Assembly (NCBI GenBank): GCA_903945375.1
Contig: CAJAVP010000069.1
Location: 1 to 62,101 of the forward strand
Reading direction: 5' to 3'
From: an uncultured Methylococcaceae bacterium
GTDB taxonomy: Bacteria > Pseudomonadota > Gammaproteobacteria > Methylococcales > Methylomonadaceae
Length of the DNA: 62,101 bases
This document shows, piece after piece, positions 4,757 to 10,289 of this stretch (position 1 is the stretch's first letter; every line of letters begins with the position of its first letter). The position numbers and the translations under genes are program-made. The notes beneath the pieces are model-generated. The model was not told where the DNA came from and searched no databases. It saw only the letters and a list, made by a program, of their open reading frames with translations.

Positions 4757-7258
4757 ATGAAAAAAATTATCCCAACAAAAAAAGCATTAAACCCAGATGA
4801 GCTCGCACAACTCGCTTTGTCTCAATTTAACGCTGGCTTGTATAAAGAAGCGAGTGATCACTATAAAAATCTATTAAAAATAGAGAATAAAGCGCTCTGG
4901 CGAACACTGTTGGGATTGTGCTATTTGAATAGAGCGCGAGAGATGGGGGCTAGAGAGATGGTTAAAGAAGCCATTATCATGTGGGATAATTATGCAGAAC
5001 AATCTGCCCCCCCGTTGCAAAGTTTCGATCACTATTTGGTTTGGCTATTAGTCTCTAAAAACTCAGCCAAATTAAAAGCCAATCTTAGCAAATTATCTGC
5101 GACCGACTTGGATGAGAGCTACCCAGAACTTGCTGGTGTCTTGGGTTTTTTAATTATCACCTCTCAACCCCACTTAGAATCTCTACTACCACAAGATGCC
5201 GTGTTTCATGTGCATTTACAGATTGTCCGTGATGCTTTACAGGCTTTTCGTGATAACGATGTCGATAAACTTGAAGCCGCATTAAAAGAACTGCCATTTC
5301 GTTCAGCTTTTCGAGATTTTCGCAGCCTAATGAAGGCCGTTTTGTTGAGCTCAAGCGACACTAGTCAAGCGCAAGAATCTTTGCTTAAAATCTCTGATAA
5401 TTCGCCTTATCAAGCTGTTGCACAGGCTATTTTAACGTATTTGAGTGATGGCAAAGTCTTTGTCGAGCGAATTATTCAACACAATGCCTCGCAGCGTAAA
5501 ACCTTGATCCAAGCCAAAGGCTTAAGTAAAAAGCATCTTGACTTGCTCGAACTGGTCAGCAAGCAAAAAAACCTAAACGCAAAACTTACCTTCAATTTGG
5601 CGATTCAATACCAAGCTCTCTTTGAAAAGGATCAAGTAAAACAATTTTGTCATGATTTATTGCCCACTTATAACCTGGGGCTCAAAGATTATATCAGGCA
5701 TTTTGGTGAGAGTAGTCAATCCGATAAATATCGATTAACGGCATTACAAGCGGAGCGTGAACGTAATTTTGATGAAGCTTATTTTTGTTGGGAACGCTAC
5801 ATCAATCACTTAAAAAACAATGTGCCAGATAATGCCTACAAAATTGCGTTGATTCAACGTCATTTAGCAAAGCACGTGTCGCCTAAAGAAGCCCTTGAGT
5901 TTTGGATAGAAAGCCTTACTCATGATCCGGAGGATCGTGAGAGTTATTTTAGAATATTAACGCATTATGAAACGAAAAAAAACAAAGAAGGTCAGGCGCA
6001 ATACAAGTATTGGCTGGAAAAAAGCCTGAGTCAATTTCCACAAAATGTCGAGTTTCTCGCATTAGCCGTTAAACTGGCAATGTGTACTAAGGCATATAAA
6101 AAAGCGGCGAAATATGCAAAATCCTTGTTAATCTACGATCCTGTCAATACGATAGCCAAACAATCTCTGTTTGAATGCCATTTAGCGCATGCGCGTCGCT
6201 TGTTAAATACGAAAAAATTTCATTTGGTTGCACAAGAAATACAGGCGGCTGAACAAATCAGCTTACCCAAGCGATTGCAAACACAAACGCAATTATTGCG
6301 AGGCTTTTATCAATATTTATCAGGAGATAAAGAACAAGGATTGCTCACTATAAGGCAAGCGCTGAATACGGATACAAGCTATACACATTTTCAGGTGATA
6401 GTAGAGAGCCTATTATTAAACCTACCCGCCACTCCTTTTTTAAAAGGCTTACCTGCACTTAAAGGAGCGCGGTTGTCGGCGTCCACTATGAATCAGCTGC
6501 TGATAATGATTAAAACCTATCAAGATCAGCAAGTTAGCAATACCATATTGAATACAGCTCTAGATAAAATAAAAACTGTATTGAGAACCTCCGTACAAAA
6601 ACAGAATTTTAGTGAGGAGCTAACGCTGTCCTTGTGTCAAACATTAGAATCTGTTGGAAATTTTGTATTGTTAAGCTACGTGGCAAAATTGGCACACGCA
6701 AAGTGGGAAAAACCAATCTGGGTTTATTATCAAATCTATGCTAATGCCGATGGTGATGTTCACAAACTTGGAAACATGGCGGTCTATCAATTAGAAGATA
6801 GCGCTTATGAGGCACATCAGCAAAACGATCATCGAACTGAAATGCTGATTAATCGTTTAATCGATCGCTATCATAAATCGATGCACAGTTTTCCATTCAA
6901 TAATTTCAATTTTCCGTTCGCCCAATATGAGGATGAGGATGAGGATGAAGATGAAGGCGATATGTTGAAGAATTTATTCAATCATTTACCGGATGCGGTA
7001 ATGAATAAAATTAGTTGCAAGATAGAATTGATAGAGCAGACCAACAAATCAGAGAACATTGTATTGGAAGTTGCCAAAGCTATACCTCAAAATATTCCTC
7101 TACCAAAGAAAATGTCTATGATGATTAATTCAGATTTCATCACCGCTTTCCTAATATTAAAGGCAGCTAAAGAATTAAATATAGCGATTGGCGTTACGCT
7201 TGCTGACGTAATCAAGTATTTTGAAACGGAAACAAAATTGCCACAATCCCCTTTTTAG
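4757..7258 (+). CDS. Large TPR-like repeat protein heading the Hsp70 operon
   Basis: This 833-residue protein is probably cytosolic, with no signal peptide or membrane segment. It is helical throughout, with degenerate tetratricopeptide-like repeats. The N-terminus (ALNPDELAQLALSQFNAGLYKEASDHYKNLL, split here as AQLALSQFNAG and YKEASDHYKNLL) is a clear TPR, and similar blocks recur to about residue 560. An acidic tract made of repeated GAGGAT codon pairs (about residues 724-735) breaks the C-terminal part. It is first of five genes that overlap or nearly abut, ending in DnaK-like and zinc-ribbon proteins, so it may recognise substrates for, or scaffold, that Hsp70. The exact family was not recognised. 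No strong Shine-Dalgarno sequence precedes the ATG. Confidence 0.85.
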   Translation: MKKIIPTKKALNPDELAQLALSQFNAGLYKEASDHYKNLLKIENKALWRTLLGLCYLNRAREMGAREMVKEAIIMWDNYAEQSAPPLQSFDHYLVWLLVSKNSAKLKANLSKLSATDLDESYPELAGVLGFLIITSQPHLESLLPQDAVFHVHLQIVRDALQAFRDNDVDKLEAALKELPFRSAFRDFRSLMKAVLLSSSDTSQAQESLLKISDNSPYQAVAQAILTYLSDGKVFVERIIQHNASQRKTLIQAKGLSKKHLDLLELVSKQKNLNAKLTFNLAIQYQALFEKDQVKQFCHDLLPTYNLGLKDYIRHFGESSQSDKYRLTALQAERERNFDEAYFCWERYINHLKNNVPDNAYKIALIQRHLAKHVSPKEALEFWIESLTHDPEDRESYFRILTHYETKKNKEGQAQYKYWLEKSLSQFPQNVEFLALAVKLAMCTKAYKKAAKYAKSLLIYDPVNTIAKQSLFECHLAHARRLLNTKKFHLVAQEIQAAEQISLPKRLQTQTQLLRGFYQYLSGDKEQGLLTIRQALNTDTSYTHFQVIVESLLLNLPATPFLKGLPALKGARLSASTMNQLLIMIKTYQDQQVSNTILNTALDKIKTVLRTSVQKQNFSEELTLSLCQTLESVGNFVLLSYVAKLAHAKWEKPIWVYYQIYANADGDVHKLGNMAVYQLEDSAYEAHQQNDHRTEMLINRLIDRYHKSMHSFPFNNFNFPFAQYEDEDEDEDEGDMLKNLFNHLPDAVMNKISCKIELIEQTNKSENIVLEVAKAIPQNIPLPKKMSMMINSDFITAFLILKAAKELNIAIGVTLADVIKYFETETKLPQSPF

Positions 7259-7269
7259 TCAACACGCAG

Positions 7270-7608
7270 ATGAAAACACCCTATCAAGAATTAAACGTTA
7301 CCGAACAGGCAACAGATTCTGAAATTAAGCAAGCCTATTTGCAAAAAGTCAGAGAAAATCCACCTGATCGCGATCAGCAACGCTTTCAACAAATACAAAC
7401 GGCTTATCAAGCTATCAAAGATGCTAAAAGTCGTACGTCTTATGAATTATTTAATTTTTCTGAGCCCGATTTTATCGAGTTGCTCGGGACGGTTTGTCAA
7501 TGTGATATGCCGCCTCCCGTTTTGTCTGCCAATGATTTTATGAGCTTACTAGGGGGTAGTATTGAAGATAAAATGTTACTAAACATCTTTCCTAAAAATC
7601 GAACATGA
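7270..7608 (+). CDS. Divergent J-domain protein (PPD in place of HPD)
   Basis: At 112 residues this is a J-domain with a short tail. Residues 1-60 follow the J-domain pattern: YQELNVTEQATDSEIKQAY (helices I-II), then the loop, then FQQIQTAYQAIKDAKSR and YELF (helices III-IV). The loop that normally reads HPD, the tripeptide that triggers Hsp70 ATP hydrolysis, reads PPD here (VRENPPDRDQQ). I recall other Hsp70-linked J-like proteins with PPE/PPD loops, so this may be a real subfamily rather than decay. The C-terminal 50 residues have no recognised domain. The stop overlaps the next start (ATGA), which implies translational coupling to the GrpE-like gene. Confidence 0.85.
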   Translation: MKTPYQELNVTEQATDSEIKQAYLQKVRENPPDRDQQRFQQIQTAYQAIKDAKSRTSYELFNFSEPDFIELLGTVCQCDMPPPVLSANDFMSLLGGSIEDKMLLNIFPKNRT

Positions 7609-8255
7609 TCAGCGAAAGCCAAAAAGAAAATTTGCTCCAAGAAATTGGGGCGTATCTTGACGAATTTGAATTAACGTCGTATTCAGCACATGAAAAACCT
7701 GATTTAGCAAGCGTATTTACTGAGCTGGCTAGTCTGAAAAGTGAAGTAAAAATCGAAGCACGGCAATTTAAAACAGCTCTTGACACCTTGAATGATGCGC
7801 TGAATTACGTTGAAAAGACTAATCAAGTATTAACAATCGAGCTTGACGCTTATGCCATGCGTTTGCAACAGCAGCGGCTAGAAATTTTACGTCCAATGCT
7901 ATTAGAAATGGTTGATCTTTATGATCGATTTAGTACGGGGCTTGATGTGTTGCATCATTATCGTCCCGTATCATCCTTGTTTAAAAAATCTCGAAAACAG
8001 GATGTGCGCTTTATCACAAGCTTTCGACAAGGCCAAGAGCTGAGTTTGAAACGTTTTGAGCAAGTTTTGCAAAAACAGCGGGTATATCCCATCAGGTGTT
8101 TAGGTAAAATGCTCGATCCACACACCATGAATGCGGTTGAAATTGACCGTGACCCAAAAATTGATAACGGCATCGTATTAGAAGAGCTTCGTAAAGGTTT
8201 TTTATTTGAAGACCAAGTTCTACGTATTGCTGAAGTCAAAGTTAATAAACTTTAA
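7605..8255 (+). CDS. GrpE-like nucleotide exchange factor
   Basis: This 216-residue protein has a long N-terminal helix rich in E, K and Q (about residues 40-120), the dimerising coiled coil of GrpE. The C-terminal beta-domain is recognisable: YPIRCLGKMLDPHTMNAVEI, NGIVLEELRKGFLFEDQVLR and AEVKVNK align with the usual FDPxxHEAV...VLRKGYxxxxRVLRPAxVxV of GrpE. It would release ADP from the DnaK-like protein encoded next. It is divergent from housekeeping GrpE (no clear GxPFDP motif), which suggests a partner specific to this operon. The gene overlaps the J-domain gene by 4 bp and ends 16 bp before the Hsp70 start. Confidence 0.86.
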   Translation: MISESQKENLLQEIGAYLDEFELTSYSAHEKPDLASVFTELASLKSEVKIEARQFKTALDTLNDALNYVEKTNQVLTIELDAYAMRLQQQRLEILRPMLLEMVDLYDRFSTGLDVLHHYRPVSSLFKKSRKQDVRFITSFRQGQELSLKRFEQVLQKQRVYPIRCLGKMLDPHTMNAVEIDRDPKIDNGIVLEELRKGFLFEDQVLRIAEVKVNKL

Positions 8256-8271
8256 TTTAATTTATCCCATC

Positions 8272-10032
8272 ATGAATGAAATTATCATTGGTATCGACTT
8301 AGGTACTACCAACTCTGAAGTGGCCATTGTAGAAAATGGTCAAAGTCACATCATTACTTTTGAAAACAAAAAAATTCTGCCATCTGTCGTGGGGATTGAT
8401 GATGAAGGTCATGTTTTGGTTGGCGAAACTGCGCGTAACCAGTACTTGGTCTATCCCGATCGCACGGTGAAATCCATTAAACGCTTAATGGGACAAGATA
8501 CCCATGTTGTTATGGCAGATAAAACCTATCAACCACAAGAAATATCAGCCATTATCTTAAAACGCTTGAAAACTATCGCTGAAGACTATGTGGGGCAACC
8601 GCTTGATAAAGCGGTGATTACGGTTCCTGCTTATTTTTCCGATGCTCAACGACAAGCGACTCGTGAAGCGGGAGAAATAGCTGGCTTGAATGTCGTTAGA
8701 ATGATTAACGAACCGACAGCCGCTGCCTTGTGCTACGGTGCGGCACAGAGCGAAGCAAAACGCATGTTGGTTTATGATTTAGGCGGTGGTACGTTTGATG
8801 TGTCGATTGTCAATATTGATGCAGGTGTTGTTGAGGTACTGTCTAGCCACGGCGACAATCACTTGGGCGGTGATGATTTTGACCAACAAATTATCAACTA
8901 TTTGTCGGATCATTTATTAGATCAGTACGGTGTTAATGTGGACTTACACAGTAAGGCGTTGGCACGCATCACTCGTGCAGCGGAAAATGCCAAACTGCGA
9001 CTATCCGATGAACCGTTTGTACAAATTGATGAAGAATATTTGTTGGAATATGAGGGCAACCCCATTCATTTGTCTATCGAATTGTCACGCGTAGATTATG
9101 AGGAAATGATCCAGGACTACATCAACGCTACCTTAGATGCCGTGCATATAGCCTTAAAAGGTGCAAAGCTAATCGCATCAGATATTGATGAGATTATTTT
9201 AGTGGGCGGCTCAACACGAACTCCTATTATCCGTGAACGTCTTTTTGATGAATTTGGTTTTGAACCCCATAGCGAGATTAATCCAGACCTGTGTGTTGCA
9301 ATGGGCGCGGCAATTCAAGCCGCGATGATTAATGGTCAAAATATCGATACAGTGTTGGTTGATGTCACGCCTTATACCTACGGCACGAGCGCGTTAGGTG
9401 AGTTGTACGGACAAAATTACCCTTACATGTATGTGCCTATTATCCACAAAAACAGCGTATTACCCAGCCGCAAAACAGAAGCATTTTACACGGTTCATGA
9501 CGGTCAAGAATCGGTTAATGTTTCGATTTATCAAGGTGAAGATCCTGATGCACTAGCTAACGTACAAATAGGCGAGTTTAACATTGAAGGGCTTCGTGAT
9601 GTACCAGCTGGTAATGTTATTACAATGACATTAGATTTGGATTTAAACGGTATTTTGCACGTTTCTGCTCGAGAAAAAGCGAGTGGAAAAGAAAAATCTA
9701 TTGTGATTAACAACGCTATCTCTCGCTTTGATAACGAGGCATTATCTAATGCTAAGCAACGTGTTCAGCATCTGTTTGGTCAAAATGATGGTAGTCGTGC
9801 ATGGGATAGTGATCATGAAAACTCTGCTCAGAATGAAAAACCTTCAGTGAGTGCTGCCCGTCAACTGATTAGCAAGGCGGAGAATTTATTAGACACCGTT
9901 TCAAATGAAGACAAAGAAGATTTAATCAACTTAATTGAAACCATCAATAATTGTATCGATGCGGATGATGACAGTGGACTGACAACCGCGACAGAGCAAT
10001 TGACAGATGTCATTTACTATCTGGAGTCTTGA
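8272..10032 (+). CDS. DnaK-like Hsp70 chaperone (paralogue)
   Basis: This 586-residue Hsp70 keeps all nucleotide-binding signatures: IIGIDLGTTNSEVAIV (phosphate 1), VYDLGGGTFDVSIV (phosphate 2) and IILVGGSTRTP (adenosine). The substrate-binding domain begins near VDVTPYTYGTSALGE, and the C-terminal lid is short and ends without the disordered tail of housekeeping DnaK (about 638 residues). A longer frame opens at 8206, but the ATG at 8272 puts MNEIIIGIDLGTT exactly at the family N-terminus and avoids overlap with the grpE-like gene. Given its co-transcribed GrpE- and J-like partners, it is probably a specialised Hsp70 rather than the cell's main dnaK. Client unknown. Confidence 0.95.
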   Translation: MNEIIIGIDLGTTNSEVAIVENGQSHIITFENKKILPSVVGIDDEGHVLVGETARNQYLVYPDRTVKSIKRLMGQDTHVVMADKTYQPQEISAIILKRLKTIAEDYVGQPLDKAVITVPAYFSDAQRQATREAGEIAGLNVVRMINEPTAAALCYGAAQSEAKRMLVYDLGGGTFDVSIVNIDAGVVEVLSSHGDNHLGGDDFDQQIINYLSDHLLDQYGVNVDLHSKALARITRAAENAKLRLSDEPFVQIDEEYLLEYEGNPIHLSIELSRVDYEEMIQDYINATLDAVHIALKGAKLIASDIDEIILVGGSTRTPIIRERLFDEFGFEPHSEINPDLCVAMGAAIQAAMINGQNIDTVLVDVTPYTYGTSALGELYGQNYPYMYVPIIHKNSVLPSRKTEAFYTVHDGQESVNVSIYQGEDPDALANVQIGEFNIEGLRDVPAGNVITMTLDLDLNGILHVSAREKASGKEKSIVINNAISRFDNEALSNAKQRVQHLFGQNDGSRAWDSDHENSAQNEKPSVSAARQLISKAENLLDTVSNEDKEDLINLIETINNCIDADDDSGLTTATEQLTDVIYYLES

Positions 10033-10289
10033 TGGAGCGTTGTCCATCCTGTAAATCACGGCTTAAAGCGGAGAGCATTGACTGTTCGCGTTGTGGGGCT
10101 GAATTACAATGGGTTATCCTTTGCGAAATGATCGCCAAACAACAACTTAATGAAGCGATTTATTCATTAGTTCAACAACAGCCGCAGCAAGCTGCGGCTG
10201 CCTTGGCACAATCATTAAGCTATCAAAAAACGCCTATGGCATTACTCCTACGCGATTTTTTGCATCATAAATATGGGCGTTTTGGTTAA
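10032..10289 (+). CDS. Small zinc-ribbon protein at the end of the Hsp70 operon
   Basis: This 85-residue protein carries two CxxC pairs at its N-terminus (CPSCKSRL and CSRCGAEL), a zinc ribbon. A helical, Gln- and Ala-rich segment follows (AIYSLVQQQPQQAAAALAQS). The ATG overlaps the Hsp70 stop in a TGATG arrangement, so the two are very likely co-translated. No catalytic motif is seen. By context it may be an adaptor or co-chaperone of the adjacent Hsp70, comparable in idea to the zinc domain of DnaJ, which the short J-protein here lacks. Not recognised as a named family. Confidence 0.75.
   Translation: MERCPSCKSRLKAESIDCSRCGAELQWVILCEMIAKQQLNEAIYSLVQQQPQQAAAALAQSLSYQKTPMALLLRDFLHHKYGRFG

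Follow-up and report, generated by a model that had tools for sequence, protein, structure and literature searches.

The locus described here raises the question whether a bacterium can carry, beside its housekeeping DnaK system, a second complete Hsp70 machine whose J protein has lost the canonical His-Pro-Asp (HPD) motif. It is located on contig CAJAVP010000069.1 of an uncultured Methylococcaceae bacterium (assembly GCA_903945375.1) and comprises five genes coding for a tetratricopeptide repeat (TPR) protein, a J-like protein, a GrpE-like protein, an Hsp70 and a zinc-ribbon protein. The whole analyzed stretch of 62,101 bp is referred to as the window. Based on our analysis the five genes probably code for a dedicated and complete Hsp70 machine with a non-HPD J protein. 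The sequences show the gene set and its conservation, the purifying selection, the Hsp70 lineage with its GrpE loop, the absence of the histidine and, in cyanobacterial copies, changes on both sides of the contact D35-R167. A search of the literature available to us found no publication describing the five-gene set.

Composition and conservation of the locus

The five genes are tightly packed at positions 4757-10289, all on the forward strand and in the order TPR, J-like, GrpE-like, Hsp70 and zinc-ribbon. Gaps of 11 nt and 16 nt separate the TPR from the J-like gene and the GrpE-like from the Hsp70 gene, respectively. The J-like and GrpE-like genes share a 4-nt ATGA overlap, the Hsp70 and zinc-ribbon genes a 1-nt TGATG overlap. 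These gene calls agree with an earlier note on the window, in which the genes were described as joined by ATGA or TGATG overlaps or by gaps of 11-16 bp. The J-like (47.1 bits, cut-off 27.8), GrpE-like (74.3 bits, cut-off 25.8) and Hsp70 (510 bits, cut-off 20.6) proteins of the window matched the Pfam families DnaJ, GrpE and HSP70, respectively. The zinc-ribbon protein scored 19.6 and thereby stayed under the Pfam cut-off of 27, as did the TPR protein when searched singly (best E value 0.038). Both are weak as single sequences of the window but secure as families.

The window genome (3.59 Mb in 133 contigs, scored 100% complete) contains a gene of the PmoA/AmoA family (430 bits), which suggests that it originates from a methanotroph. 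An ordinary grpE-dnaK-dnaJ locus is present on a separate contig (C73). The housekeeping copies reached 169 bits (GrpE) and 872 bits (DnaK) versus 73 and 502 bits for the operon copies, and the HPD-type J proteins of this genome sit on contigs other than that of the operon. Thus, the locus is a complete second set beside the housekeeping one, as the earlier note had supposed provided that dnaK, grpE and dnaJ were encoded elsewhere in the genome.

The distribution of the set was determined with the operon GrpE as query over 121 related genomes, its own included, a match of at least 70 bits being taken as positive. In total, 40/121 genomes were positive. The next best match had 37 bits, and the low-scoring group from there downward fits the housekeeping GrpE. 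Among 20 genomes of the same genus the window genome was the only positive one (0/19 others). A profile of the TPR protein matched in 11/369 genomes drawn from the class, 9 of them outside the order, and in 27/398 genomes drawn from the phylum, 26 of them of other classes. Sixty-nine loci were then compared, namely those of the window, of 39/39 other GrpE-positive relatives and of 9/9 class genomes, as well as 20 loci of other classes from 19 of the 26 TPR-matching genomes.

The complete five-gene set was found in 53/69 loci, and order and location on one strand were the same in 53/53 of these. The set is present within the taxonomic order of the window genome, elsewhere in the class and in other classes of the phylum. 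Over the 53 complete loci, the pairwise distances of the five proteins are correlated (0.80-0.94 between matrices). For nine pairs of related loci the ratio of nonsynonymous to synonymous substitution rates (dN/dS) ranged from 0.06 to 0.56 in the genes present in both members, with the highest value in the J gene of L077/L079; one of the nine pairs has no zinc gene. All five genes, the J and zinc genes included, are under purifying selection, and these ratios indicate that the proteins are maintained. Since order and strand are kept in every complete locus and dN/dS lies in this range, the arrangement is more than chance. The conserved five-gene order for which the earlier note had proposed to search does exist, and the TPR and zinc-ribbon genes, whose absence from other copies it had named as a counter-argument, are conserved with the set in 53/69 loci.

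The J-like protein

In total, 63 J proteins of the set were compared, that of L075 being counted as PPD. The histidine of the HPD motif was absent in 63/63, and the window protein reads PPD. PPD (29 proteins) and PPE (24) prevailed over SPE and SPD (2 each) and over PPA, PAE, PPS, PQE, SKT and SKA (1 each). Three of the single variants (PQE, SKT and SKA) belong to loci that carry only the TPR and J genes (L138, L139 and L144). Outside these, position 33 was P or S in 60/60 proteins, P34 was kept in 59/60 and D or E at position 35 in 58/60. In the two TPR-J pairs with SKT and SKA the HPD region was lost altogether.

As described in the accessible part of PMC8215388, D35 of DnaJ binds R167 and Q378 of DnaK. 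HPE is the only replacement of HPD that seems to be tolerated, according to the available sections of a 2026 review (PMC13254874). In our set the position of DnaJ K26 was L in 59/63 proteins, as in DjlB and DjlC, which the operon J profile matched at 7e-14 and 1e-12, respectively. J proteins encoded next to HscC depart from HPD as well: by eye we read HPE in DjlB, DjlC and Erwinia, RPD in P. oryzihabitans, KPE in G124 and NPE in locus L006. Because these proteins vary the motif too, relaxation of its first position may be more widespread among specialised pairs of Hsp70 and J protein. The J and GrpE partners had already been noticed as divergent, and our comparison supports this.

The Hsp70

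Counts for the Hsp70 refer to 58 operon proteins; the fragments in L076 and L123 were excluded and an MreB-type match in L142 was not counted. For a 48-row tree we chose 25 of the 58, the long-branched L078 and L124 not included. The DnaK-like paralogue L151, which fell into no group in a 91-row tree, was excluded from the 48-row tree. The 25 operon Hsp70s formed one clade (100/99), which was joined by a protein from a Nostoc plasmid at 100/99. Five HscC grouped at 100/100, DnaK and HscA were joined at 100/99, and the operon clade was found outside both. The 91-row tree, which had a midpoint root and a long-branch warning, drew the operon Hsp70s with HscC (96). Since the 48-row tree is unrooted and amounts to a three-way split, the operon Hsp70 is regarded as a separate lineage with respect to the sampled DnaK, HscA and HscC, and no sister group is claimed.

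The ATPase residues K70, E171, T199 and D201 were kept in 58/58 operon Hsp70s. Likewise, R167, Q378, E217, D393 and P419, which contact the J protein, were present in 58/58, so that the J-docking site is kept. The GrpE loop (DnaK 290-295) is full, with 6 residues, in 58/58 and in the Nostoc protein. It is shortened in 7/7 HscA and has 2 residues in 5/5 HscC, a contrast which depends on the alignment for the HscC of L006 (6 residues at 290-295 in one alignment, 2 in another). The linker follows the pattern [ATSG][VCI]L[VI]D and is not of the VLLLD type; position 389 is a small residue in 58/58 and in Nostoc, compared with V, I, L or M in 38/38 DnaK, HscA and HscC. R56 is replaced by N in 56/58 and E264 by R in 55/58, hence the DnaK salt bridge R56-E264 is lost; the Nostoc protein retains R56. 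The substrate pocket is DnaK-like (V436 in 57/58, F426 in 54/58).

The window Hsp70 was initially characterized as short, and this amounts to a missing insert in the nucleotide-binding domain (DnaK 76-101) and a missing disordered C-terminal tail. It has 586 aa and its relatives mostly 575-590, the range used to define HscC being 550-580 aa. The 76-101 insert is missing in 58/58 operon Hsp70s, in HscC and in 4/4 non-proteobacterial DnaKs, and the loop with D211 in all of these (58/58 and 4/4, respectively) and in 7/7 HscA. As the non-proteobacterial DnaKs share them, neither deletion is diagnostic of HscC. At most 8 residues lie beyond position 600 in 58/58, and 57/58 show the pattern [YF]Y[LMV][EDQ] at the C-terminus.

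The L1,2 loop, in which an insertion of 4-8 residues is characteristic of HscC, measures 34-36 residues in the operon Hsp70s, 26 in DnaK and 30-35 in HscC. A further HscC trait is a nine-residue deletion in lid helix B. The five commonest length classes, which comprise 29 of the 58 proteins, had a total lid length of 94-102 versus 83 in 5/5 HscC and are DnaK-like in this respect. The lid aligns poorly. A single-sequence model (mean predicted local distance difference test score, pLDDT, 40.5) shows coil at 503-525, the stretch expected for helix B, and this lid helix may be interrupted. Within this poor model a C-terminal helix bundle is confident, its last helix spanning 567-585 with the tail as its end. 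We had considered the motif [YF]YLE[ST] as an EEVD-like docking tail for the TPR protein and dropped this idea, as a structural role is as likely for a tail that ends the last helix.

Copies on cyanobacterial plasmids

A Nostoc plasmid carries, in the gene order of the window, genes for a TPR protein (846 aa), a J protein (98 aa), GrpE, an Hsp70 of 586 aa and a protein with CxxC-CxxC and TPR. Profiles built from the proteobacterial proteins recognise its J, GrpE, Hsp70 and zinc proteins. Furthermore, three plasmids of one Acaryochloris strain (L183, L190 and L191) carry TPR, J, GrpE and Hsp70. Several frames on these look broken, and Hsp70 profile matches spread over more than one open reading frame (ORF); the gene tables of the three plasmids list no Hsp70, which was seen through profile matches only. 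With the window TPR protein as query, a search of plasmid sequences gave no match.

The J motif is PAH and the Hsp70 has Q167 in 4/4 cyanobacterial copies, three of which come from one strain (positions in Acaryochloris were read by eye). Both sides of the D35-R167 contact are changed in the cyanobacterial copies.

The TPR, GrpE and zinc-ribbon proteins

TPR_19 was matched at an E value of 0.01 in 15/18 members of the TPR family scanned, the window protein not being among them. Designed TPR proteins of the PDB were matched by the family profile with an E value of 9.5e-18, and the single-sequence model was all-helical (mean pLDDT 46, best around 400-530). TPR and J genes adjoin each other in three loci without Hsp70. 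In an Oscillospiraceae metagenome-assembled genome (L006:4870-9695) a 1046-aa fusion of J and TPR, with the motif NPE, is encoded directly upstream of an HscC-like Hsp70. Because TPR-J pairs persist without Hsp70 and such a fusion stands beside an HscC-like Hsp70, we infer a client receptor composed of the TPR and J-like proteins.

In the zinc protein a single pair of CxxC knuckles precedes helices, which gave TPR matches in the Nostoc copy and none at an E value of 0.01 in L057. The protein has 85 aa in the window; in 17 aligned relatives it reaches about 126-164 aa and has additional helices, and those of some other relatives are as short as that of the window. The zinc-finger domain of DnaJ is built of four CxxCxGxG motifs. 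The idea of the earlier note that the zinc ribbon could stand in for this domain is not supported, since there is one CxxC pair and the zinc proteins of the window, L057 and Nostoc did not match the DnaJ zinc-finger family. The ribbon may still act as a functional substitute that lacks homology.

Proposed mechanism and points against it

In the mechanism that we propose, the client receptor would be made up of the TPR protein together with the small J-like partner. The J-like protein would dock at the usual site between nucleotide-binding domain, linker and substrate-binding domain of its own Hsp70, using P-P-[D/E] and not H-P-D, and this docking would trigger hydrolysis of ATP and trapping of the client. 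The GrpE of the operon would then act on the retained GrpE loop, so that ADP is swapped for ATP and the client is released, with the zinc-ribbon/TPR protein as an accessory adaptor. A physical complex, stimulation of the ATPase, exclusivity towards the housekeeping DnaK and any client are putative.

Several observations weigh against this proposal. Exchanges of H to Q or D to N in HPD abolished stimulation in every system tested, as stated in the accessible part of PMC8215388. D or E at position 35 is missing in two proteobacterial J proteins, those of L051 (PPA) and L124 (PPS), while R167 is present throughout the Hsp70s (58/58). The joint change in the cyanobacterial copies lies within one clade and is one event at most. 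A profile search of the three Acaryochloris plasmids gave no zinc gene. The Nostoc TPR protein gave no profile match at an E value of 0.01 and reached a hhalign probability of 26% (E value 7e-4); because these matches are weak, its gene may be called the same by place and kind, common descent not being proven.

The set is incomplete in 16/69 loci, five of which end at a contig edge (L061, L066, L076, L117 and L123). L080 lacks the Hsp70 and zinc genes, L078 the TPR and J genes, and L124 the GrpE gene (the zinc gene of L124 could lie off the contig). Eight loci carry TPR and J only (L138, L139 and L144) or TPR only (L119 and L140-L143). Incompleteness was judged at the locus. Additionally, the co-occurrence is conditional, as the loci were chosen by GrpE or TPR matches.

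Alternative explanations

The locus could belong to the known HscC system (HscC with DjlB and DjlC), rearranged and with extra genes. Common to both are a specialised Hsp70 that has a longer L1,2 loop and no long tail, and J partners other than HPD (HPE in E. coli); the E. coli HscC system also has Sel1-repeat genes nearby. The J profile match to DjlB and DjlC, their common L at position 26, the varied motifs beside HscC, the 91-row tree with its root and long-branch warning, and a possibly interrupted helix B in the poor model agree with this. However, the clades are separate (operon with or without Nostoc 100/99, HscC 100/100), the operon Hsp70 has the full GrpE loop, another linker and, in the five commonest length classes, a longer lid, and the shared 76-101 and D211 deletions prove nothing. 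GrpE has reportedly been counted in for HscC in older work by others. Neither a GrpE nor a zinc-ribbon gene is annotated in the E. coli HscC cluster, and HscC is described as an unlikely GrpE interactor in the available part of PMC8215388. Membership in HscC was attractive while HscC was the sole other short Hsp70 in the tree and was rejected after non-proteobacterial DnaKs and HscC from plasmids had been added; we regard it as improbable. Rather unlikely, too, is a J-like protein that serves as a scaffold or brake, in which case the trigger for hydrolysis would come from the TPR protein loaded with client or from a different J protein acting in trans. Mitochondrial Pam16, which is without HPD, acts in such a scaffold- or brake-like way, and the loss of H33 throughout, the narrow tolerance for HPE and the degraded motifs of the TPR-J-only loci would fit. 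Against it, P34 and D/E35 are kept almost throughout, the contact residues on the Hsp70 are intact, the set has no second J gene and the HPD-type J proteins of the window genome are encoded on other contigs.

A redundant duplicate of the DnaK system for times of stress, with no special clients, is very unlikely. The DnaK-like pocket residues V436 and F426 would allow broad binding, and upstream of 3/67 loci a sigma-32-like score of 11 of 13 was reached where shuffles give 0.3. Overall, the upstream regions held no sigma-32-like signal (mean best score 8.76 versus 8.78 shuffled, window 9, scored with a sigma-32 consensus), and heat-shock control was dropped, the three high-scoring loci aside. 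Moreover, two conserved partners are absent from DnaK systems and the lineage is deep and separate. We think just as little of a mobile cargo module such as a chaperone-based defence or plasmid-fitness system. The patchy occurrence within the genus and the copies on the Nostoc and three Acaryochloris plasmids speak for it; on the other hand, PADLOC matches of the five proteins were weak (best E value 0.0066, zinc protein to LmuB), none of the five is effector-like, their distances correlate and no neighbour recurs in more than 7/69 loci, although this comparison did not include a scan of the neighbours for defence genes.

Comparison with other Hsp70 systems

The proposed dedicated machine shares with housekeeping DnaK-DnaJ-GrpE the full set of Hsp70, J and GrpE and the GrpE loop. 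It differs by HPD, the VLLLD-type linker, the long tail and the clade of the latter, and the TPR and zinc-ribbon partners are found in the operon only. HscA-HscB is likewise a dedicated Hsp70-J pair. Its Hsp70 forms a separate clade, the GrpE loop is kept in the operon only, and E. coli hscA lies among isc genes, none of which occur in the operon. DNAJC7, which has HPD, is one chain, unlike the two genes without HPD found here. In eukaryotic TPR-J proteins such as DNAJC7 the TPR and J modules act together as well, according to the available sections of PMC13254874. A further specialised bacterial system is DnaK1-DnaJ3-GrpE of motile cyanobacteria; as far as described in the accessible part of PMC9239167, the genome has one GrpE and dnaK1 lies between grpE and dnaJ11, its partner being DnaJ3. 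A search of PMC9239167 for the word tetratricopeptide gave no result, and by this description the DnaK1 system is set apart from the operon.

Features and neighbourhood of the locus

The features of the locus are listed in Table 1. No further gene family of the fetched stretches was found near more than 7/69 loci and the immediate neighbours differ widely; neighbouring genes were therefore dropped as a clue to the client. A few neighbour families do recur in 4 to 7 loci across at least two family labels. The clearest is a gene, which we take to be gatB-like, directly upstream of the TPR gene in six loci of two families (L072-L075, L081 and L082); there the two genes overlap or are no more than 21 bp apart. 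In the window an ORF near the operon (35-1564) looks like an insertion sequence transposase, as read from its letters. Two more large proteins of the window genome (L003 and L004) carry an Hsp70-like part.

Table 1. Coordinates of the five genes and of selected motifs in the window
Feature	Position	Strand	Remark
TPR (alpha-solenoid) protein, 833 aa	4757..7258	+	proposed client receptor with the J-like protein
J-like protein, 112 aa, PPD replacing HPD	7270..7608	+	Pfam DnaJ; motif alignment
PPD codons at the HPD position	7360..7368	+	sequence
GrpE-like protein, 216 aa	7605..8255	+	proposed dedicated nucleotide exchange factor; Pfam GrpE
Hsp70, 586 aa	8272..10032	+	ATG 8272, stop 10030-10032; Pfam HSP70
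Interdomain linker TVLVD of Hsp70 (E. coli DnaK: VLLLD)	9349..9363	+	alignment
C-terminal YYLES of Hsp70, end of last lid helix	10015..10029	+	no long disordered tail
Zinc-ribbon protein, 85 aa	10032..10289	+	ATG 10032
CxxC-x10-CxxC zinc knuckles	10041..10094	+	four cysteines in 54/54 homologues found

Implications

The lost HPD histidine, the separate Hsp70 lineage with GrpE loop and the cyanobacterial plasmid copies go beyond the earlier note. Three bacterial Hsp70 types are named and HPD is called essential in the accessible part of PMC8215388. The chances are about even that the set represents a fourth kind of bacterial Hsp70 machine, spread over several classes of Pseudomonadota and cyanobacterial plasmids, with a non-HPD (mostly proline) J trigger, an [ATS]VLVD linker, its own GrpE and a TPR receptor.

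In the available sections of PMC13254874 it is still called enigmatic whether an altered HPD in J proteins arises by accident or by positive selection. The non-HPD J protein described here is conserved across classes, is under purifying selection and is encoded together with an Hsp70 and an exchange factor of its own, which makes this question testable with one defined set of proteins. The set could be a naturally insulated chaperone set.

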